Source: an uncultured Desulfuromonadales bacterium (GTDB lineage Bacteria; Desulfobacterota; Desulfuromonadia; Desulfuromonadales; Trichloromonadaceae). From it: DNA of 41,304 nucleotides. The notes beneath the pieces were generated by a model that did no database searches, was not told the DNA's origin, and saw nothing but the letters and a program-made list of their open reading frames with translations. How positions within the stretch are numbered: position 1 is the first letter of the stretch; every line of letters begins with the position of its first letter. The DNA lies in the NCBI GenBank assembly GCA_945787465.1, contig CALZIZ010000045.1, forward strand, positions 1-41,304. The letters run 5' to 3'. The translations under genes were made by a program, and so were the position numbers. Shown piece by piece: positions 8,762 to 21,301 of the stretch.

Positions 8762-10441
8762 ATGAGCCTTGTCGGAAATCTTGAAGATCTGGGTCTGGGA
8801 GACATTCTCCAGATCGTCAGTCTGAGCCGGAAGTCCGGGGTTCTGGTCCTGGCCAGCCGCAACAGGGAAGGTACCATTGTTTTTCTGAACGGCCAGGTCA
8901 TCCGAGCCACATCCAGTGTCAGCCGCGACAACCTCGGCGATCTTCTGGTGCGGCAGGGCGTGGTTGACCTTGAGACGCTCAAAAATGCCTTGATGCTTCA
9001 GAAGCAATCTCAACCCCCGCCCCGCCTGGGAATTATCCTTTCTGAAAATTTTGGAATCCCCAAAGACGGCATAGACAAGATCGTCAAAGAAACGATCGAA
9101 AACATCGTCTATAGCTTTTTCGGCTGGACCGAGGGGACCTTCTCCTTTGAACTTGGTGAGCCTGAGGAGCTGGCCGCCACCCAGCTCAACCCCCTGCAGT
9201 TCATGCTTGACCAGGGGCTGAACCCCCAGTGGCTCGCTATGGAGGGGAGTCGGATTTTTGACGAAAAGCGTCATCGCGGTGAATCCCTGGAGCTTCCCTC
9301 CGAGCGTCCCATGGTCGACATGGAGGCCCTGCTTCGGGAGGTGGACAATGCCGCCGGGGTTGCCGTGGTCACCAGTGACTCTGCGCCCGGTGGTAGCGGG
9401 TTGCAGCCTGTGCAGATTTACCTGGTGGACGATGATGTCTTCACCGGAGAATTTCTCGGCCGCCTGTTGCAGGAGTTGGGCTACCAGGTCATGACCTTCA
9501 GCGAAGCCGAAGCCACCCTCGAGGCGCTTGAACGTGCGGTCGACGAAGGGGAGAACCCGGTGGTGGTGATCGACCTGATTATGCCGAGGATGGATGGAGC
9601 CGGCATCCTCGGCGGCATGGAAGTGCTTGAGCAGGTTCACGGCAGATATCCCGACCTCAGGGCGCTGCTGATGTCCGATCACGCCCATCCCGATGCCGAA
9701 CGGCATGTTCACGCCCTGGGGCTTCCGGCCATCCTTGCCAAGCCCAAAAAGAGCGATGTTCGCGATGAGGCCGGGCGCAATGCGTTGCAATCTCTGGCCC
9801 AGGCGATCGATTCGCTGCTCAGAGAAGAGCCTGCCCAGGGTTCTTATAACTTCGGGGCAGATCTTCTCAAGGAACTTGGCGAGGACTCTGGTGCCGCCAC
9901 AACGATCAGTGCTCAAGGCTCCGCCGGCTTGAGGCAGCTCAAGGGGATGTTGCAGGAGCTAAGTCATCCCGCTCTCGGTGGGGGCATTATCCTGCTGGTG
10001 CTGCGCTTTGCCAGTGAATTTGTCAATCGTGCGGTCATGTTCCTGGTTCAGGATGAACAAATCGTCGGCCTCGGTCAGTTCGGCATCGAAATTGCAGAAG
10101 TTCTTGCCGATGCCAGGGTCCGCCAGACCTGTATCCCGACCACAGAAGAGTCCATCTTTCTGGGAGCGTTGCGGCAGAAAGTGCCAATGGTGGTTCCCTT
10201 CGGGACCAGCGACTGGGACAATTATCTGTCACAGCAACTCGGGGGAAAGGCGCCTAGGGAGGTTTTTCTCGGGCCTATCCTCAGCGAGGGCAAGGTGGTT
10301 GCCATCATTTACGGCGACAACCTGCCCCAGGGGCAACCGTTTGGCGATACCGAGCCGCTGGAGATATTTCTTTCCCAGGCCGGGCTGGCCATGGAAAAGG
10401 CGCTGCTTGAAAGACGGTTGCGCGGGCGCAACGACGATTGA
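8762..10441 (+). CDS. DUF4388 (PATAN-like) protein with internal receiver domain and C-terminal GAF-like region
   Basis: N-term SLVGNLEDLGLGDILQIVSLSRKSGVLVL...GTIVFLNGQVIRA; REC core QIYLVDDDVFTGEFL...VVVIDLIMPRMDG...LAKPKK. Confidence 0.85.
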   Translation: MSLVGNLEDLGLGDILQIVSLSRKSGVLVLASRNREGTIVFLNGQVIRATSSVSRDNLGDLLVRQGVVDLETLKNALMLQKQSQPPPRLGIILSENFGIPKDGIDKIVKETIENIVYSFFGWTEGTFSFELGEPEELAATQLNPLQFMLDQGLNPQWLAMEGSRIFDEKRHRGESLELPSERPMVDMEALLREVDNAAGVAVVTSDSAPGGSGLQPVQIYLVDDDVFTGEFLGRLLQELGYQVMTFSEAEATLEALERAVDEGENPVVVIDLIMPRMDGAGILGGMEVLEQVHGRYPDLRALLMSDHAHPDAERHVHALGLPAILAKPKKSDVRDEAGRNALQSLAQAIDSLLREEPAQGSYNFGADLLKELGEDSGAATTISAQGSAGLRQLKGMLQELSHPALGGGIILLVLRFASEFVNRAVMFLVQDEQIVGLGQFGIEIAEVLADARVRQTCIPTTEESIFLGALRQKVPMVVPFGTSDWDNYLSQQLGGKAPREVFLGPILSEGKVVAIIYGDNLPQGQPFGDTEPLEIFLSQAGLAMEKALLERRLRGRNDD

Positions 10442-10534: not shown

Positions 10535-10903
10535 ATGCCTAAGAAGATCCTGATAGCCGAAGATTCTTCAACCATGCGGGCTCTGATCGTTTCAAGTATC
10601 GCCGCCATGGGCGATTTTGAAATCTTTGAGGCCGCCAACGGGTTTGAAGCCTTAAGGATTTTGCCCCGTGAAAAGGTGGATCTTGTCATTACCGATATCA
10701 ATATGCCTGATATCAATGGCTTGGAGCTGGTCAGCTTTGTGCGGAGCAATGCCAACTACCAGTCCATCCCGCTCTTTATCATCAGCACCGAAGGCAGCGA
10801 GCGCGACCGGCAGAAAGGACTGAAGCTGGGAGCCAATGCCTACCTCGTCAAGCCATTTTCTCCCGATGAGCTGCAGGCTCTCATCCGGCAGTATCTCGGG
10901 TAG
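10535..10903 (+). CDS. Single-domain response regulator (CheY-like)
   Basis: MPKKILIAEDSSTMRALI...VDLVITDINMPDINGLELV...IISTEG...YLVKPF; phosphoacceptor Asp and Lys intact. Confidence 0.94.
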   Translation: MPKKILIAEDSSTMRALIVSSIAAMGDFEIFEAANGFEALRILPREKVDLVITDINMPDINGLELVSFVRSNANYQSIPLFIISTEGSERDRQKGLKLGANAYLVKPFSPDELQALIRQYLG

Positions 10904-10912
10904 GAGGCCCTG

Positions 10913-12952
10913 GTGACTGACAACTCTTCCTCGCAGGTGCTCAATGAATTTCTTGGCGAAGCCGAAGAGATCATCGAAAAACTCAACGTCGACCTGGTGA
11001 CCCTTGGCGACAGCGCCGATGCCGGTGAGGGAGACCCTGATCTGCTCAACGGCATATTTCGAGGGGCCCACTCCTTGAAGGGCCTGGCGGGAATGTTCGG
11101 TTTTGACGATGTCTCCAGCCTGGCCCATCATATGGAGGGTCTGCTTGACAGTTTGAGACTCGGAAAGGTCCCTCTCGACACTCCGCTGGTCGAGACTCTG
11201 TTCGATGCCCTGGAGATCATTACCCGTCTGGTTCATGGCAAGGGCGAAGGGGATGGCTTCACTCTTGACCTCAAGCCCATCCTCGATCAGATCAGCGGCA
11301 TTCTCAGTGGCAGCGGGCAGGCGGCCGGAAATCAGCTTGAAAATCTTAATATCGATCAGGAAATTCTCAGCGTTCTTACCGAGTATGAAGAACACCGGCT
11401 CCTTGACAATATTCAGAAGGGGCGCACGCTGTTCAAGGTTAAGGCGTCCTTCGACCTGACCAGCTTTGACCAGGACCTCGCCGAGATTAACCACATTCTC
11501 AAGCAGCACGGAGAGGTGGTCAGCACTTTGCCCTGCAGCGGGGATGTCTCTGACCGGATTGCCTTTCAGCTGTTGTTTGGGACTAATGCTGACGTTGAAA
11601 CCATTCAAAAGGCTCTGGGGCGGGACGATGTAGTGATCGAAACCGTCGGCCAGGCGGGCTCCGCCCCCGTCGTTCAGGCGGCCCCTGTGGTTTCGGCCCC
11701 CTCAGGAGAGGCTCGAGAAGTGGCGCCGCCGGCTGTAGAAACCTCGGTGCGCTCCATCAGCCGCACGGTTCGAGTGGACATCGAAAAGCTTGACTCTTTG
11801 ATGAATATTGTCGGTGAACTGGTTCTGGCCAAGAGTTCGATCGCCGGGCTTTGTGAGCAACTCAAGGAAGAGTATGAAGGGGAACTGGCCAGTTCCATGA
11901 TAAAAGCGACCCGGATTCTAGAGCGGCGGTTGCATGAACTGCAGAGCGGGGTCATGGATGTGCGGATGGTTCCCGTCGGTCAGCTCTTTGAGAAGATGAA
12001 CCGTATCGTGCGGCGGGTTGCCAGCGAGACGGAAAAAAAGGTCAACCTCGATTTGCGCGGGGCCGACACCGAACTGGACAAGCTGATTATCGAAGACCTC
12101 TCCGATCCCCTGATGCACATCATCCGCAATGCCATCGATCACGGCCTCGAGTCTACCGCTGAACGCCGCGCAGCAGGCAAGCCCGAGAAGGGGACCATTT
12201 GTCTGTGGGCGTCGCAAAAGGGCAATAATGTCGTCATTGAGGTCAGGGACGACGGGCGTGGCATCGACCCTGAAAAAGTCCGTCACAAGGCCGTAGAGAG
12301 GGGTTTGATTTCCGAGGGTGTCGAACTGTCCAGGGAGGAAGTCTTCGAGCTGGTTTTCATGGCCGGCTTCTCAACCAGGGATCAGGTCACCGACCTTTCC
12401 GGGCGCGGCGTTGGCATGGACGTGGTTAAGAACAATATCGCCATGCTCTCGGGGGTCATCGAAATGGACAGCCAGGTCGGGCAAGGAACCAGTCTGGCCA
12501 TTACCCTGCCAATTACCCTGGCCATCATCAAGGCCCTCGTCGTCAGGGTCTGCGGCAAGACCTACGCGATCCCCATCAATTCGGTGATGGAGACGCTGAT
12601 GCTCAATCCGGCCGATATCCATACCATTGAGCGGCGCGAGGTCATCGAACTGCGCCAGAGCACCTTGCCGCTGTTGTGGCTCGACCGCACCTTCGGTCTT
12701 CCTGCCGGTGAGCGAAAGGAGGATAAGTTCTTTGTCGCGGTCGTCGGTCTGGCAGAAAAACGCATGGGCATTGTGGTCGATGAGCTTCTGGGGCAGCAGG
12801 ACGTGGTTATAAAATCACTCGGCAGCACCCTCTCTTTCGTCAAGGGGATTGCCGGGGCGGCCGACCTTGGCAACCAGAAGACAATCCTGGTGCTGGATGT
12901 GGGAGGATTGATGGGCGAGGCGTTCCGCGGGGAATCGAGTTTATATGTATGA
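10913..12952 (+). CDS. cheA: Chemotaxis histidine kinase CheA
   Basis: GTG start; HPt box FRGAHSLKGLAGMFGF, dimerization DIEKLDSLMNIVGELVLAKSSI, HATPase (IIRNAIDHGLES, DDGRGID, GRGVGMDVVK), CheW-like C-terminus. Confidence 0.96.
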   Translation: MTDNSSSQVLNEFLGEAEEIIEKLNVDLVTLGDSADAGEGDPDLLNGIFRGAHSLKGLAGMFGFDDVSSLAHHMEGLLDSLRLGKVPLDTPLVETLFDALEIITRLVHGKGEGDGFTLDLKPILDQISGILSGSGQAAGNQLENLNIDQEILSVLTEYEEHRLLDNIQKGRTLFKVKASFDLTSFDQDLAEINHILKQHGEVVSTLPCSGDVSDRIAFQLLFGTNADVETIQKALGRDDVVIETVGQAGSAPVVQAAPVVSAPSGEAREVAPPAVETSVRSISRTVRVDIEKLDSLMNIVGELVLAKSSIAGLCEQLKEEYEGELASSMIKATRILERRLHELQSGVMDVRMVPVGQLFEKMNRIVRRVASETEKKVNLDLRGADTELDKLIIEDLSDPLMHIIRNAIDHGLESTAERRAAGKPEKGTICLWASQKGNNVVIEVRDDGRGIDPEKVRHKAVERGLISEGVELSREEVFELVFMAGFSTRDQVTDLSGRGVGMDVVKNNIAMLSGVIEMDSQVGQGTSLAITLPITLAIIKALVVRVCGKTYAIPINSVMETLMLNPADIHTIERREVIELRQSTLPLLWLDRTFGLPAGERKEDKFFVAVVGLAEKRMGIVVDELLGQQDVVIKSLGSTLSFVKGIAGAADLGNQKTILVLDVGGLMGEAFRGESSLYV

Positions 12953-13751
12953 GGGTTTTTACGGGCTCCAAGAGCGGCCTTTCAGTAAAACCCCCGATCC
13001 CCGTTACCTCTACCTCAGCACCCAGCATCGTGAAGCGCTGGCACGGTTGCATTATGCCGTAGAGGAGCGGGAGCTGATTCTGTTCACCGGGGCCATCGGC
13101 TGCGGCAAGACAACCCTGTCCCGGGCCTTGATGGATGAACTCGGGCAGGATTTCAAGGTCATCCTGTTGATCAACCCCAGGTTGGCCCCACTTGAGTTTT
13201 TGCGGGTGATTGCCCGCAGATTGGGGGGCGGTGAGCCAGCCCTGTACAAGAGCGAACTGCTTGATCAGTTGGGCCGTGAGCTGGCCCTTCTTCACGAAAA
13301 ACAAATCTGCCCGGTCCTGGTGATCGATGAAGCCCAGCTGGTTCCCTACCGGGAAACTTTTGAGGAGATCAGGTTGCTGACTAATTTTCAGCTCGATGAT
13401 CGCAACCTGCTGAGCGTCGTTCTGATGGGGCAGCCCGAGCTGCGACAACGCCTTGCTCACCGATTTTACGAACCGTTGCGTCAACGGATCGGAATGCAGT
13501 ATCACCTTGAACCGCTTTCGCTTCAGGACACCGGTCAATACATCAATTTTCGCCTTGAGGTCGCTGGAGCGCAACCGGGACTTTTTCTGCCCGAGGCGGT
13601 GGAACAGATTTATCGCTACTCCGCAGGTGTGCCCAGAAAGATCAATCACGCCGCATCGCTGGCCCTGCTCGAAGGCTTCGGCCGTGGGTCAAGGGTTATC
13701 GATGGACAGATTCTCGAAGCCATTATGCCGGAGCTGAACCTGGCGCTCTAG
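12945..13751 (+). CDS. ExeA/GspA-like AAA ATPase, short form without extra C-terminal domain
   Basis: MYEGFYGLQERPFSKTPDPRYLYLSTQHREALARL (typical ExeA-like N-terminus), Walker A GAIGCGKTT, Walker B VLVIDEAQ; 8-nt overlap with cheA end (ATGTATGA). Confidence 0.9.
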   Translation: MYEGFYGLQERPFSKTPDPRYLYLSTQHREALARLHYAVEERELILFTGAIGCGKTTLSRALMDELGQDFKVILLINPRLAPLEFLRVIARRLGGGEPALYKSELLDQLGRELALLHEKQICPVLVIDEAQLVPYRETFEEIRLLTNFQLDDRNLLSVVLMGQPELRQRLAHRFYEPLRQRIGMQYHLEPLSLQDTGQYINFRLEVAGAQPGLFLPEAVEQIYRYSAGVPRKINHAASLALLEGFGRGSRVIDGQILEAIMPELNLAL

Positions 13752-13763
13752 AAAAGATGTCTG

Positions 13764-14462
13764 ATGATGGATCTCGCTGAAATACGCAAAAAAGCCAATT
13801 CGCAAAAGCAGGACGGGGTTGCCCCGCCGTTGCCAAGCGAGGCCGAGCCCGACGCGGTGGCCTTTGACCTTGATGTTCTGGAAGTCCCTCCGCCTGAAGA
13901 AAAAGGTGGATTGGCCCAGGGCTCTTCGATCGATCCCCTCGATGCCTTGTTTGCATCGCAGCGGGGGCTGGATCTGATCAAAGATGAGCAGTACCTTCAG
14001 GGGTTTGGCGAAAATGATTTGGTAAAAACGGAAAATCTTGTCGAATGGTTGACGTTTTCTCTCGGTAATGAAGATTATGCGCTGGACATCAACTCCATTC
14101 ACGAGATAATAAAACCCAGGGAAATTACAGATATCCCCCGGGTGCCCGAATTCATACTTGGTATTATCTCGTTGCGCGGTATAATACTGCCTGTATTCGA
14201 CCTGACCCGGCGTCTCAGGCTGGGCTCAGCCGAAGTCTCTCCGCATTCAAGAATAATCATCTGTGAATACGGGGAATGCACCGCGGGGCTTCTGGTCGAT
14301 CATATCAACCAGGTGGTGCGGATCAAAAAAGAAGAGATCGAACCCCCTCCCGCCGTCCTTTCAGGCCTGGATCGAGATTTGATCGAGGGGGTCGGCAGGC
14401 AAGAAGGCAAGATGATGATTTTGTTGAATTTGAAATGTGTTCTGGACCCTGAACTTATCTGA
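13764..14462 (+). CDS. cheW: CheW-domain protein with ~90-aa N-terminal extension
   Basis: WLTFSLGNEDYALDINSIHEIIKPREITDIPRVPEFILGIISLRGIILPVFDL; acidic/proline-rich N-terminal extension. Confidence 0.92.
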   Translation: MMDLAEIRKKANSQKQDGVAPPLPSEAEPDAVAFDLDVLEVPPPEEKGGLAQGSSIDPLDALFASQRGLDLIKDEQYLQGFGENDLVKTENLVEWLTFSLGNEDYALDINSIHEIIKPREITDIPRVPEFILGIISLRGIILPVFDLTRRLRLGSAEVSPHSRIIICEYGECTAGLLVDHINQVVRIKKEEIEPPPAVLSGLDRDLIEGVGRQEGKMMILLNLKCVLDPELI

Positions 14463-14483: not shown

Positions 14484-14855
14484 GTGTCTAAGAAAAAGAT
14501 TCTGATCGTTGAAGATGAGGAAAGCCTTCTTAAGCTCGAAAGCATTTTGTTGACCTCCAAGGGATATGATGTCAAAGGCGTTGCCAATGGCCAATCTGCC
14601 CTGGATGCCATTGCCGAAGAAAAACCCGACCTGGTTTTACTCGATATCATGTTGCCCGAAATCGATGGCTTCGAAGTGTGTCAGAGAATCAAGGATGAGC
14701 CGACGACAAAGAACATCCCGGTTATTATGTTGACGGCCAAAAAGAGCCGCGAGGACATGGCCCGGGGAGAGCGTGTCGGCGCCGACTGGTACATTACCAA
14801 GCCTTTCAAGTCGGCCATGGTGATCGAAACCATCCAGAGGTTTCTGGCTAAATGA
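14484..14855 (+). CDS. Single-domain response regulator
   Basis: GTG start; KKILIVEDEESLLKLES...PDLVLLDIMLPEIDGFEVC...VIMLTAK...WYITKPF. Confidence 0.93.
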   Translation: MSKKKILIVEDEESLLKLESILLTSKGYDVKGVANGQSALDAIAEEKPDLVLLDIMLPEIDGFEVCQRIKDEPTTKNIPVIMLTAKKSREDMARGERVGADWYITKPFKSAMVIETIQRFLAK

Positions 14856-15355
14856 TGCACGCCCCCTCGCCAGATTTCGCAACAGAATCCCGCCAGGAGA
14901 TTCAACTCGCCTGTTTTCGTATCGGTGCCGAACTCTATGGGCTCGATATCATGCGGATCCGGGAAATAATCCGTCCCCAGAAACTGACGCCCGTACCTCG
15001 TGCACCCGCTTTTGTCGAGGGGGTGATCAACTTACGCGGGGCTGTCATTCCGGTGGTCGATCTGCGCAAGCGATTTGAGCAGGGCATCACAGAAGATAAT
15101 CGCAAGGCGAGAATCATTATCTGTTCCCTTGCAGGAAAAATCTTTGGGTTGATGGTGGATGAGGCCTATGAAGTGCGCCGATACACCAGGGCAGAGGTGC
15201 AGCCGGCCCCCCGATTTATGAGTGGCAAGGGGGCGGAGTTTTTCCTCGGGGTTTGCCGTCGCGAGGACGACCTGGTGATGGTGCTTGACCTGGAGAGAAT
15301 TCTTTCCTCCGATGAGCGAATCGTTCTGGAAAAAATCCAATCCTCGCCTCGCTGA
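14852..15355 (+). CDS. cheW: CheW-like coupling protein
   Basis: LACFRIGAELYGLDIMRIREIIRPQKLTPVPRAPAFVEGVINLRGAVIPVVDLRKRF; ATGATG overlap with the preceding response regulator. Confidence 0.93.
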   Translation: MMHAPSPDFATESRQEIQLACFRIGAELYGLDIMRIREIIRPQKLTPVPRAPAFVEGVINLRGAVIPVVDLRKRFEQGITEDNRKARIIICSLAGKIFGLMVDEAYEVRRYTRAEVQPAPRFMSGKGAEFFLGVCRREDDLVMVLDLERILSSDERIVLEKIQSSPR

Positions 15356-15415
15356 ACCATCCGCTTGAGTACTCCGCCGAATCGCATCGGTTGCGGTGAG
15401 GCGGCTGAGGTTTTA

Positions 15416-15952
15416 ATGATCATTCAATGCCCGGCCTGTGCCGGCCGATTTTCTGCCAGGCAACAGCGCTTTGCAGGAAAACGCATCTCTATCCGCTGTT
15501 CCCGTTGTCAACACCTGTTTCAGGTGGCCGTTCCCCCAATCCCCAGAAGGAAAATTCTCCTTGCCCATCAAGACAGCCGCATTTGCGAGAGCGTCTCGCA
15601 GCTGTTAAAGGCAAACGGTTTCGCTTTGCACGTGAGCCAGGATGGGGCACAGACTTTGCAGGACTTAGAAGCCTGGCAGCCGGATGTGCTTTTACTTGGC
15701 GTTGCAATGCCCGGATTTTTGCCCTTTGAGATACCACAGAAGATTCGCGGCAACCCTCTTCTGATGCGGACCAAAGTCATCCTTTTGGCTTCGATTTTTA
15801 ATCAGGCGGCCTACAGACGGCGGCCCGACAACCTTTATGGGGCCGACGACTATGTCGATGAGCATCTGTTTTCCCAAGAGTTGGTGAATAAAATAGACAG
15901 GGTTATGCAGCAACCGGAGGTTTTAACCAACGACGACACCTCCGCGGGATAG
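15416..15952 (+). CDS. MJ0042-type zinc-ribbon protein fused to a degenerate receiver domain
   Basis: From ATG 15416: MIIQCPACAGRFSARQQRFAGKRISIRCSRCQHLFQV (CxxC...CxxC), then RKILLAHQDSRICESVSQLL...PDVLLLGVAMPG...GADDYVDEHLF. ORF track starts upstream at TTG 15365. Confidence 0.82.
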   Translation: MIIQCPACAGRFSARQQRFAGKRISIRCSRCQHLFQVAVPPIPRRKILLAHQDSRICESVSQLLKANGFALHVSQDGAQTLQDLEAWQPDVLLLGVAMPGFLPFEIPQKIRGNPLLMRTKVILLASIFNQAAYRRRPDNLYGADDYVDEHLFSQELVNKIDRVMQQPEVLTNDDTSAG

Positions 15953-16077: not shown

Positions 16078-18090
16078 TTGGAAATAAACGATAATGTACA
16101 CATCATGCTTCAAGCAGAGCAGGAAGAGCAGCGCCTTCAAGGTCTGAAGCTGCTTTCTTCTATGGATCTTGCCGAGCACCTGCCGCTGTTGCTCTCGGCC
16201 CTTGGGGATGACAGCTGGAGGGTGCGCAAAGAGGCGGTGGAGCTGTTTCTCGCCACACCCAGGGCGGGCGTCCTTGCCGCTGAGATTGTAGAGCTGTTGC
16301 ACTCGCAGGACAACGCCGGGTTGCGTAACGCTGCTGTCGAGATTCTAACCAGGTTGGGGCGTCATAGCGTGCCGGCGTTGCTCGACGAATTGCCATGTAA
16401 TGATCATGATGTTCGGAAGTTCGTGATCGATATTCTCGGTGATATCGGCGACATCTCATGCCTTGAGCCGATGATCGGGGCTCTTGATGATCCCGATAGC
16501 AACGTGAGGGCTGCGGCAGCTGAGAATCTCGGCAAGCTTGGTCTCTCAGGGTCAGTTCCGGCTCTGCTCGATGCCATGGAGGTGCCTGATCTGCTGTTGA
16601 GATTTTCGATCCTCGAGGCCTTGAGCAAAATTGGCGGCGAGCTTCCTGTCGAAAAGCTGCTGGCCTATCAGGACGACAAGCTGTTGCGAAAAGCCCTTTT
16701 CGATTGCCTCGGACGGGTCGGCGGGGTCGAGGCCGTTCCTGCCCTGGTTCAGGGCCTTGCCGATCCTATGAGCAATGTTGGCGAGGCCGCAGCACTGGCT
16801 CTCTATCGCCTCTGCGACAATTATGGCCAGCAACTCGACGAGCTGATGGCCCGCTTGGTCAGTGAAGATGTCTGCCAGGCGCTGGGGCGATTGCTGAACA
16901 GTTCCAAGCTTTCGGTCAAACAAGCCGCAATCGGGCTTTTGGGCCGCTTCGGCTGTGCCCCATTGGCTCTTGAACTGCTGCAACTCCTGGAGCTCGAGGA
17001 GCTGCGTGAACAGACAGCCTCGGTTCTGGTGGCAAGCGGGTCACAGACCGGCCCGGTCCTGATTGAGGCCTGGCCCGGTTCGGACAATCGCATCCGCATC
17101 TATATCGCTTATCTTTTGGGCGAGATTGGCTGCGAACAGGCACTTTCGCTGCTTCTCGAAGGGCTCTTGAGCGACGAGCCGAATCTGAAGCTGGTTTGTG
17201 CCCAGGCGCTTGGCAAGCTCGGGCAGGTTCAGGCGGTGCCGCAACTTGTCGATTGCCTTGGCGACGAATCGGCGGACGTTCGCGAAACGGCCATGCGCGC
17301 CCTGAGCTCCCTGAGTCAAGCTCATCAGCAAGAGACTTTGGCCATTCTAGAGCCCATGTTCGAAGACAGCGACCCTGAGAAGCGTATGTATGCCCTGCAG
17401 ATTCTTGGGCAATGTGACGGTCCCGAGGTCGAGGCTCAACTGGCCTTTGCCCTTAAGGACGAATCGGCCCATGTGCGTAGTGCTGCGGTCAGGGCCTTTG
17501 AAGGGCGCGGCGGGGAGGGGCGCCTGCAGAGTCTGATGCTGGCCCTGACTGATGAAGACCCCGAGGTGAGGCGTCTGGCCGCCGAGGTGCTCGGCAGTTC
17601 GGGCGAGCCGCAGGCCGTCGACTCTCTCGAACTCGCTCTTCAGGACGGGGATATCTGGGTGCGTACCGCGGCCGTACGCTCTCTTGGGCGCCTGGATGGG
17701 CCCCGGGCTCTTGGCCTGGTGCAACGGGCTGTCGAAGACAAGGTGGGGCTGGTCATCATTGCTGCCCTGGAAACCCTTGAAGAACTCGATCCGGAAGCAG
17801 CTTCGCCCTTTCTGGCCAGGATGTTGGGCCATCATGATGATGAAGTGGCCCATACGGCCCTGAAGCTGCTTTATCGCAGCCAGAAAAAGGACTGGATTGC
17901 TCCAGTCAGAGATCAACTGCTCAACCACGCCCATTGGGAGATCAGGTTGACCATGGCTCGTGCCAGTGCCGAGCTTGAAGGGGTTGAGGCCATTGCCGGT
18001 CTGGAGCAGCGCTTGTTAGTCGAGGGTGAGCCGATGGTCCGTGACATGATTCAGGACCTTTTGCTTGACCTCAAAGTGGCCCAGGGGTGA
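16078..18090 (+). CDS. HEAT-repeat (PBS lyase-like) protein, ~670 aa
   Basis: Many ~31-aa repeats of the type LLSALGDDSWRVRKEAVELF, MIGALDDPDSNVRAAAAENLGKLG, LVDCLGDESADVRETAMRALSSL; TTG start is uncertain. Confidence 0.9.
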   Translation: MEINDNVHIMLQAEQEEQRLQGLKLLSSMDLAEHLPLLLSALGDDSWRVRKEAVELFLATPRAGVLAAEIVELLHSQDNAGLRNAAVEILTRLGRHSVPALLDELPCNDHDVRKFVIDILGDIGDISCLEPMIGALDDPDSNVRAAAAENLGKLGLSGSVPALLDAMEVPDLLLRFSILEALSKIGGELPVEKLLAYQDDKLLRKALFDCLGRVGGVEAVPALVQGLADPMSNVGEAAALALYRLCDNYGQQLDELMARLVSEDVCQALGRLLNSSKLSVKQAAIGLLGRFGCAPLALELLQLLELEELREQTASVLVASGSQTGPVLIEAWPGSDNRIRIYIAYLLGEIGCEQALSLLLEGLLSDEPNLKLVCAQALGKLGQVQAVPQLVDCLGDESADVRETAMRALSSLSQAHQQETLAILEPMFEDSDPEKRMYALQILGQCDGPEVEAQLAFALKDESAHVRSAAVRAFEGRGGEGRLQSLMLALTDEDPEVRRLAAEVLGSSGEPQAVDSLELALQDGDIWVRTAAVRSLGRLDGPRALGLVQRAVEDKVGLVIIAALETLEELDPEAASPFLARMLGHHDDEVAHTALKLLYRSQKKDWIAPVRDQLLNHAHWEIRLTMARASAELEGVEAIAGLEQRLLVEGEPMVRDMIQDLLLDLKVAQG

Positions 18091-18097
18091 GGGTGCC

Positions 18098-18976
18098 ATG
18101 TTGATATTTACCCCCGAAATCCCCATGTCCGATGAAGAGTTCCGCCTGCTGCGCGACCTTGTTTATAAGCACTGCGGGCTTAACTTTACAGAAGATTCCA
18201 AATATCTTCTCGAGAGGCGGCTCGGCAAGCGCCTTCAGCACCATCGGCTGAAAAACTACAAGGATTACTATTACCTGCTGCGGTATAACCGGGACAAGGA
18301 ACAGGAGTTAACCGAGGTGGTCAACTCTTTGACTACCAACGAGACCTATTTCTTTCGAGAGGATTTTCAGCTGCGTTCCTTCACCGAGGAGATTCTCCCT
18401 GAAATCCGCGCCCGAAAGGAGCAGCGTGGCGAGCGCAAACTGCGCATCTGGAGCGCAGGTTGTTCCAGCGGCGAGGAGCCCTATACCCTTGCCATGCTGC
18501 TTCTCGATGATCCAAGCTTTCGTGGCTGGCAGATTGAGATCGTCGGCACCGACATCAGTCAGAAGGTGCTGCAAATCGCCCGAAAGGGACTTTACGGAAC
18601 CAGCTCCTTTCGCAGTACCTCCCCTGATTATCAGCGGCGTTACTTCACCCAAAAGGATGGTAAATTCCAGATCGCTGACCGGGTCAGGGACCTGGTGACC
18701 ATCAGTCATTTGAATCTCTTCGATGCCCCCAAGGTGGCTTTGCTGGGCAAGATGGATGCGATTTTTTGCCGTAATGTCATTATTTATTTCGATATGACTG
18801 GCAAGAAACGGGTCATCGAGAACTTTTTCCAGCGCCTTAAACCTGAAGGCTTTTTGATGCTGGGGCATTCTGAATCGTTGATGAACATCTCAACCGCTTT
18901 TGTGCTGCGTCATTTCAAGCACGACATGGTTTATCAACGCCCTGCAGCGGGGCCCCCCGGTGAGGGGCTGCTATGA
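18098..18976 (+). CDS. cheR: Chemotaxis protein methyltransferase CheR
   Basis: LTTNETYFFRE, IWSAGCSSGEEPYTLAMLL, DAIFCRNVIIYFD, LGHSESL; ATG at 18098 preferred over TTG 18065. Confidence 0.96.
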   Translation: MLIFTPEIPMSDEEFRLLRDLVYKHCGLNFTEDSKYLLERRLGKRLQHHRLKNYKDYYYLLRYNRDKEQELTEVVNSLTTNETYFFREDFQLRSFTEEILPEIRARKEQRGERKLRIWSAGCSSGEEPYTLAMLLLDDPSFRGWQIEIVGTDISQKVLQIARKGLYGTSSFRSTSPDYQRRYFTQKDGKFQIADRVRDLVTISHLNLFDAPKVALLGKMDAIFCRNVIIYFDMTGKKRVIENFFQRLKPEGFLMLGHSESLMNISTAFVLRHFKHDMVYQRPAAGPPGEGLL

Positions 18977-20049
18977 CAGACAACATCCGCATTCTGGTGG
19001 TGGACGATTCTGCCTACAATAGGCGTTCGCTTAGAAAGATGCTTGGCGAGTTGCCGGGCATTGAGGTGGTGGGCGATGCCTGCGACGGCGAAGAGGGGTT
19101 GCGCAAGGTCTTTGATCTGAAACCTGACCTGGTAACCCTTGATCTTGCCATGCCCCGTCTCGATGGCTTTGGTTTTTTACGCATCGTCATGGAGCAATGC
19201 CCGGTTCCGGTAATCGTCATTTCATCCCATTCCGAGGACGAGAATGTCTTTCGCGCCCTTGAACTCGGCGCCGTTGAATTTATTCCCAAACCTTCAAAAA
19301 AGATCACTCCGGAGATTTACCAGGTACGCGAGGAGCTGCTGCGCAAGGTCAGCCAGGCTTCGGGGGCCGACATGCGTAAGGTGCTGGCCCGGCCGGCCAT
19401 CGACCCTCGGCGCAAGGTGCGCAGGCGCCAGGTCGCTTCCCCTCCCCGCAAAAGCTTTGGCGGCGGGGGCATCGGGCACGTGGTCATCGGCTCTTCGACC
19501 GGCGGTCCACCAGCGCTGCAAACGATTTTTTCTGCCATTCAGGAATCTGTTCCTGTTGCCTTCGCCGTCTCGCAGCACATGCCGGCGGTTTTTACCAGGG
19601 CCTTTGCCGAGCGCCTCAATAGATACAGCGCCCTGGAAATTCGCGAGGCGCAAAGCGGCGATATCATGACGCCCGGCAGGGTCCTGGTCGCCCCCGGGGG
19701 CTGTAACCTGGTCTTTGACAGGCGCCGGGAAGAGGTTTGCGTGCAGGTCGTCGATCCCGGCTCAGCGCAGCGTTACGTGCCCTCGGTCGATGTCATGTTC
19801 AGTTCGGCCGGGGAGATTTTTAAAAAAGATCTTCTTGGGGTTGTGTTGACCGGGATGGGCAACGACGGTGCCCAAGGTACTATTGATATTAAAAAGTGCG
19901 GTGGGCAGGTGCTTGCCGAGGCTGAAGAGTCAAGTGTCGTGTTCGGCATGCCGAGAGAAGCTATAGCGACCGGCCAGGTTGATAAGGTCGTACCTCTACC
20001 GCTGATGTGCCGGGAGATTTTTCGGCGTTGCAATCTGGCATCGCAATAA
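18973..20049 (+). CDS. cheB: Chemotaxis response regulator protein-glutamate methylesterase CheB
   Basis: REC domain (VVDDSAYNRRSLRKML...DLVTLDLAMPRLDG) plus methylesterase motifs IGSSTGGPPALQ, QHMPAVFTRAFAERL, LTGMGNDGAQG; ATGA overlap with cheR. Confidence 0.97.
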   Translation: MTDNIRILVVDDSAYNRRSLRKMLGELPGIEVVGDACDGEEGLRKVFDLKPDLVTLDLAMPRLDGFGFLRIVMEQCPVPVIVISSHSEDENVFRALELGAVEFIPKPSKKITPEIYQVREELLRKVSQASGADMRKVLARPAIDPRRKVRRRQVASPPRKSFGGGGIGHVVIGSSTGGPPALQTIFSAIQESVPVAFAVSQHMPAVFTRAFAERLNRYSALEIREAQSGDIMTPGRVLVAPGGCNLVFDRRREEVCVQVVDPGSAQRYVPSVDVMFSSAGEIFKKDLLGVVLTGMGNDGAQGTIDIKKCGGQVLAEAEESSVVFGMPREAIATGQVDKVVPLPLMCREIFRRCNLASQ

Positions 20050-20052
20050 CGG

Positions 20053-20907
20053 ATGGCTGCCTCTGAGGACAGGAGATCCCCGATGATGGAACCGGAAGAC
20101 GAAAAGGGTTCGGCAAAAAAAGTCGAAGAATTCCTGCAGGTATTTAAAAAGGGCGCAGAATTCACCCAGGAACTGCTCAAGGAAAACGAGCGCTTGCGTT
20201 ACCAGATTCTGCAGCTAAGGCAAGGTCCTCACCAGAGCCCGCCTGCTCCTGATGGTTCGGAGGTTGCTGCGCTCAAGAAGCAGATTGAGGACCTTGAGAG
20301 GGATAAACAGGAAATCCTCGATCGAATCAAGCAGATTCAGCAGGAAAACCACGATTTCGCTAATCGCTATGTTGAAATCGAATCCGAAAACAACAACCTG
20401 GCCAATCTCTATATCGCCTCATTTCAATTGCACTCGACCCTCGATTTTCGCGAAGTGCTGCAGGTGATCATGGAGATTGTCATTAATCTCATCGGCGCTG
20501 AAGAATTTGCCATTCTGCTGCATGACGAAAAGACCAATCGGCTCCAGGCTGTGTCGGCCGAAGGGGTAGACAAAGCCGAGCTGCCCTCGGTTGGTCTTGG
20601 CGAAGGGGTTATCGGTGAGGTGGCACAGACGGGTGAGAGCTACTTCTTTGCGAACATCGAGGACTACCAGGAAGATTTTTCCCACCCCATGGTCTGCATT
20701 CCCCTGAAAATCAAAGACCACGTGATCGGGGTGATTGTCATCTACAAGCTCCTGGTCCAAAAAAATCGTTTTGCCGAGGTTGATTTTGAGCTTTTCACCC
20801 TGCTGGCCGGTCATGCCGCTACGGCCATTTTCTCTTCAAAGCTCTATTCCGAATCTGAACGCAAGCTCTCGACCATTCAGGGGTTCATTGAGCTTTTGAC
20901 CAAATAG
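20053..20907 (+). CDS. Soluble coiled-coil/GAF-domain protein
   Basis: Heptad-rich region EVAALKKQIEDLERDKQEILDRIKQIQQENHDFANRYVEIESENNNLANLYIASFQLHSTLDFREVLQVIMEI followed by a GAF-like domain; no transmembrane stretch or MCP hairpin seen. Confidence 0.86.
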   Translation: MAASEDRRSPMMEPEDEKGSAKKVEEFLQVFKKGAEFTQELLKENERLRYQILQLRQGPHQSPPAPDGSEVAALKKQIEDLERDKQEILDRIKQIQQENHDFANRYVEIESENNNLANLYIASFQLHSTLDFREVLQVIMEIVINLIGAEEFAILLHDEKTNRLQAVSAEGVDKAELPSVGLGEGVIGEVAQTGESYFFANIEDYQEDFSHPMVCIPLKIKDHVIGVIVIYKLLVQKNRFAEVDFELFTLLAGHAATAIFSSKLYSESERKLSTIQGFIELLTK

Positions 20908-20920
20908 TCCGGGAGGGGCC

Positions 20921-21301
20921 ATGGTGCAATACAGAATCCTGATTGTAGAAGACTCGCCGACCATGCGTCAGTTGATTGCCTTTGCCCTGAAGCGGGTTCG
21001 GGAATTTATCATCGACGAAGCCGGCGACGGGGTCGACGGCTTGAAAAAGCTATCCAGCGTCAAGTATGATCTCATTCTGACCGACATCAATATGCCGATC
21101 ATGGACGGTTTGAAGCTGGTCAGTCTGGCTCGCAACGATCCCGGGTACAAGGATGTGCCCATTGTCATCATTTCCACCGAAGGGGCCGTTGAGGATCGGG
21201 AGCGGGCGTTGGCCCTGGGGGCCAACGAATATATCACCAAGCCCGTTCAGCCGGCCAAGGTGCTTGAAACCGCCCGTCGACTGCTGGGTCTCCAGCCCTG
21301 A
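20921..21301 (+). CDS. Single-domain response regulator (CheY-like)
   Basis: YRILIVEDSPTMRQLIAFAL...YDLILTDINMPIMDGLKLV...IISTEG...YITKPV. Confidence 0.94.
   Translation: MVQYRILIVEDSPTMRQLIAFALKRVREFIIDEAGDGVDGLKKLSSVKYDLILTDINMPIMDGLKLVSLARNDPGYKDVPIVIISTEGAVEDRERALALGANEYITKPVQPAKVLETARRLLGLQP

Follow-up and report, generated by a model that had tools for sequence, protein, structure and literature searches.

In the literature on chemosensory systems, the "beta group" denotes a che gene cluster without an mcp gene (Tran et al. 2008, PMC2577667). The Esn genes of Geobacter sulfurreducens, GSU2220-GSU2222, represent this arrangement and encode CheW, an ATPase and CheA, respectively, with no MCP in the cluster; the system works with MCPs of class 40H. 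In a Tn-Seq analysis of growth on electrodes, GSU2220 (esnB, CheW), GSU2221 (the ATPase) and GSU2222 (esnC, CheA) yielded values of -2.4, -2.1 and -2.8, respectively; esnB and esnC were subsequently deleted, whereas GSU2221 was not (Chan et al. 2017, PMC5585712). Within the literature searched, GSU2221 is mentioned in PMC5585712 only, and neither the ATPase itself nor the CheW peptide described below is studied in that paper or in PMC2577667. Polarity on esnB may account for the Tn-Seq defect of GSU2221.

ParC of Vibrio is a ParA-type ATPase. It forms an array-positioning pair with ParP, the N-terminal region of which binds ParC and is joined to a CheW-like domain by a proline-rich linker (PMC5706961). 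Among the AAA+ ATPases, ExeA/GspA, which serves type II secretion, combines the AAA_22 fold, intact Walker motifs and an N-terminal MY..F signature with a transmembrane (TM) segment and a periplasmic peptidoglycan-binding domain, and its gene adjoins that of GspB (T2SSB). A further relevant family is the XrtA/PEP-CTERM-associated ATPase (TIGR03015).

The window analyzed here, that is, the whole 41,304-nt stretch of contig CALZIZ010000045.1 from an uncultured Desulfuromonadales bacterium, carries an operon that matches the published beta group/esn cluster: cheA, cheW, cheB and cheR are all present, the cluster contains no mcp, and CheW, the ATPase and CheA are consecutive, as in GSU2220-GSU2222 of another genus. 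All genes of the operon lie on the forward (+) strand. The first gene encodes a DUF4388-receiver protein (8762..10441) and is followed by a CheY-like receiver (10535..10903) and by cheA of the beta group, EsnC type (10913..12952; Pfam domains Hpt, H-kinase_dim, HATPase_c and CheW, with assignment by class-wide search and tree). Next come the ATPase (12945..13751) and cheW1 of the EsnB type (13764..14462), a receiver protein (14484..14855), cheW2 (14852..15355), which has no N-terminal peptide, an MJ0042 zinc-ribbon receiver protein of variable presence (15365..15952), a HEAT-repeat protein (16078..18090), cheR (18065..18976), cheB (18973..20049), a GAF protein (20053..20907) and a receiver protein (20921..21301), the last gene before leuS. 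The operon contains no export gene. In the fully read loci of other genomes the order is der, DUF4388-receiver, cheY, cheA, ATPase, cheW1, receiver, cheW2, (zinc-ribbon receiver), HEAT, cheR, cheB, (GAF), receiver, leuS, with some of these genes absent in some lineages.

The ATPase is a stand-alone protein of 268 aa of the ExeA/GspA type. Its coordinates, strand and length, and its overlap with cheA, are as given in the initial annotation: the ATG at 12945-12947 and the cheA TGA at 12950-12952 share the 8-nt ATGTATGA (12945..12952, + strand). The same overlap is the commonest spacing, found in 55 of 132 loci (locus rather than species counts, as the collections share some loci and are partly redundant), and most of the others lie within ~10 nt. 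Pfam AAA_22 matches the protein with 82.6 bits, and the Walker A (GAIGCGKT, residues 49-56), Walker B/DEAQ (128), sensor-1 (GQPEL, 162), arginine (RQRI, 179) and sensor-2 (PRKIN, 230) regions can all be located; in 45 orthologues the key residues of these motifs do not vary. Since orthologues with 53-74% identity occur throughout the class, a chance reading frame is ruled out. The N-terminal MY..F signature is shared with ExeA/GspA, but the TM segment and the peptidoglycan-binding domain are not: the most hydrophobic 19-residue window scores 1.48, and the Pfam search finds no peptidoglycan-binding domain in an ORF that ends at 268 aa. Its next gene, moreover, encodes CheW1 instead of GspB. Hydropathy and Pfam thus agree with the initial reading of an intact AAA+ ATPase devoid of both parts. 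The best curated family is TIGR03015, which matches over the full length; however, because the score of 222.8 bits falls below the cutoff of 324.5, the ATPase is a relative rather than a member of this family, and its neighbors are che genes. A sequence search of solved structures returned a weak match to the VirB11 P-loop and nothing else. In the AlphaFold model discussed below the ATPase part is predicted with pLDDT ~96, and its nearest solved folds are MuB, TnsC and Orc/Cdc6. Members of these families oligomerize with ATP.

In a class-wide search, an orthologue of the ATPase was found in 199 of 277 genomes and the matching CheA in 202 of 277, with the two adjoining in nearly all loci read; the pair extends to Nitrospirota and to Desulfobacterota outside the class. 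The identity of ExeA-like proteins to the window ATPase is sharply bimodal, with paralogues at ~40%, seven of which are encoded in the same genome as the window. In the tree, the che-linked ATPases form a clade of their own (support 94), apart from the ExeA-type and HD_5-linked ATPases. A lack of conserved adjacency in relatives, which the initial annotation had named among its grounds for refutation, is therefore not what is seen. The pair is also less novel than was implied there: both the gene and the operon are already in the literature, GSU2221 being equated with the window ATPase on the basis of gene order and annotation. With high confidence, the ATPase belongs to the beta-group (Esn-type) chemosensory system as one of its conserved parts. 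Several apparent exceptions were dismissed upon inspection: in G101, which seemed to lack the ATPase, a C-terminal ATPase fragment sits at the contig edge, and in genomes that seemed to lack CheA (e.g., G232 and G236) the full search finds CheA adjoining the ATPase. In the G024 operon (L026, L050), an in-frame TAA interrupts the ATPase gene after residue 175, and one TAA is likewise present in the match to CheA from that genome, indicative of either decay or assembly error. At four loci (L066, L074, L076 and L100) cheA and the ATPase gene are in the same frame with a stop codon alone between them, so that the frame reads open for ~960-970 aa through the stop.

What appears to be new is the N terminus of CheW1. 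The CheW domain (Pfam, residues 95-227) is preceded by a short peptide, MDLAEIRKKA (13767..13796, + strand), and by a variable, disordered Pro/Ala-rich linker (13797..14045, + strand), which measures 51-170 aa among orthologues, contains 11% Pro and cannot be aligned. The peptide, in contrast, follows the consensus M[DN]LA[EDK]IRKKA, and its Arg and second Lys are invariant in an alignment of 20 divergent orthologues; variants in deeper lineages include LARARE(R/K) and IAEIREK. Across 98 distinct DNA versions, the Arg is retained in 98 and the Lys in 97, whereas synonymous sites vary freely; selection thus acts at the protein level, and an RNA-level cause of the conservation is rejected. The peptide is present at every one of the 132 ATPase-bearing loci in which CheW1 can be read: a pattern search recovered it in 130, and it was located by hand in two draft loci (L154 and L169) that had seemed to combine the ATPase with a peptide-less CheW1.

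Operons without the ATPase present the converse picture. Among 23 of these, the peptide is absent from 21 (G125, G127, G258, G259, four genomes of the f22 family, G335 and twelve more distant clusters), degenerate in one and intact in one. The degenerate version, MNLAETRKKA, is found in G154 (L058), which has lost the ATPase, whereas G336 (L199) keeps an intact MDIAEIREK although no ATPase orthologue was found in its genome. Both have close relatives that carry the ATPase, and the losses may therefore be recent, but the two genomes still count as counter-examples. When mapped on well-supported branches of the CheA tree, six independent contrasts are available, in which the peptide follows the ATPase in four (five, if G154 is counted as lost) and never the reverse; a sign test on this trend gives p 0.125 (0.06 with G154 as lost), short of significance. 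The HEAT protein was considered as an obligatory partner and rejected: it is kept in G125 and G127, which have lost the ATPase, although several other ATPase-less operons are without it.

A comparable arrangement recurs around the paralogues. The usual gene downstream of the ExeA-type paralogues is that of GspB (T2SSB), which starts with MS[SFY]ILxALKKxE, so that here, as for the window ATPase, the next gene bears an N-terminal basic peptide. A basic amphipathic N-terminal pattern, written after examples had been seen, matches 20 of 24 genes following ExeA-type paralogues, compared to 2.2% of 780 background N termini. In a separate clade of ExeA-like ATPases (L107, L108, L112-L117), the next genes encode HD_5 phosphohydrolase-type proteins that begin with MV[KR][IF]SDII[KR] or similar, five of the eight matching the general pattern; several of these loci lie beside polysaccharide-export-like genes. 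The likeness among the CheW1, GspB and HD_5 peptides is one of arrangement, not of homology.

Given that the peptide is constrained, is often lost together with the ATPase and is paralleled on the partners of ExeA paralogues, we consider it likely that the ATPase docks on CheW1 via the N-terminal peptide. AlphaFold is silent on this point, because the confidence of the peptide is the same with and without the ATPase: its helix has pLDDT of about 67-74 in a model of an in-frame readthrough fusion of the ATPase and CheW1, and 75 in CheW1 alone, which led us to discard the higher confidence of the peptide relative to the linker in the fusion model as evidence of docking. The initial reading of the ATPase as a partner or output of the kinase is supported in part: adjacency is conserved, and GSU2221 shares its Tn-Seq defect with its CheA and CheW neighbors (PMC5585712). 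The partner is probably not the one proposed there: rather than CheA P5 or the HEAT protein, the evidence favors the following CheW, the peptide of which co-varies with the ATPase, and nothing was found in support of the ATPase being an output for the kinase.

Under the reading that we moderately favor, an ExeA-family AAA+ ATPase, shorn of its membrane and cell-wall parts, would be dedicated to the beta-group (Esn-type) system and would grip the MDLAEIRKKA of the adjacent CheW1, tethered to the CheW domain by the flexible linker. Once there, the ATPase would oligomerize in an ATP-dependent manner and thereby cluster, position or remodel the signaling units that contain CheW. That this activity serves array assembly or positioning, rather than regulation of kinase output, is a less secure part of this reading, at about even odds. 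By analogy, the ATPase and CheW1 could represent a non-homologous counterpart of ParC-ParP: both pairs consist of a Che-linked ATPase and a CheW-like protein with an N-terminal element and a proline-rich linker, although ParC is of the ParA/MinD type and the window ATPase is an AAA+ (AAA_22) protein, and in the window system binding and array positioning are predicted.

The 8-nt overlap and tight spacing with cheA, together with co-inheritance of the ATPase and the matching CheA, could instead signify that the ATPase acts directly on CheA, translational coupling fixing their stoichiometry while the ATPase regulates or reads kinase activity. This we find unlikely: at least four lineages of the class have no ATPase yet retain a beta CheA of ordinary full length, the co-varying element sits on CheW1, and overlap by itself suggests translational coupling, not binding. 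Similarly improbable is the possibility that the ATPase ties the pathway to envelope or exopolysaccharide export, the usual role of its relatives, with CheW1 recruiting it as an output arm. The export-like surroundings of the HD_5-linked clade and a reported effect of G. sulfurreducens beta cluster mutations on the extracellular matrix (an unpublished observation quoted in PMC2577667) are consistent with such a link, but the ATPase has neither a TM nor a wall-binding domain and no export gene is found in the operon. Less probable still is that the CheW1 peptide, which is short, basic and helical in models, is an amphipathic membrane-binding tail whose loss accompanies that of the ATPase, both being part of a membrane-proximal mode of the array. 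Although the similar GspB peptide is closely followed by a membrane segment, strict invariance of the Arg and Lys positions would not be needed in a helix that faces lipid, and the HD_5 partners carry a comparable peptide without a membrane domain detectable by Pfam.

Docking of the ATPase on CheW1 would bear on a pathway that underlies electrode sensing and colonization by Geobacter-type cells, and to which the ATPase belongs; the predicted ten-residue handle on CheW reduces the question of what the ATPase does to one testable interaction. More tentatively, ExeA-family ATPases might constitute a modular drive unit that recognizes an N-terminal amphipathic basic peptide on the next-door protein, a peptide which, once moved onto CheW, would have given rise to AAA+-driven array assembly or positioning independently of ParC/ParP. 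The same peptide rule could explain the targets of many unassigned ExeA-like ATPases.

Two further loci deserve mention. G297 encodes a divergent che cluster (L105), with a CheA 29% identical and a related ATPase, in which CheW starts with MAKIGEIRKKK followed by a proline-rich linker; a second, beta-like cluster of the same genome (L203) is without an ATPase. At L096 (G258), the next gene after that of an XrtA-type ATPase encodes a BcsQ/ParA-like protein whose N terminus reads MSNIYEALEQAQREK, possibly a variant of the same peptide.
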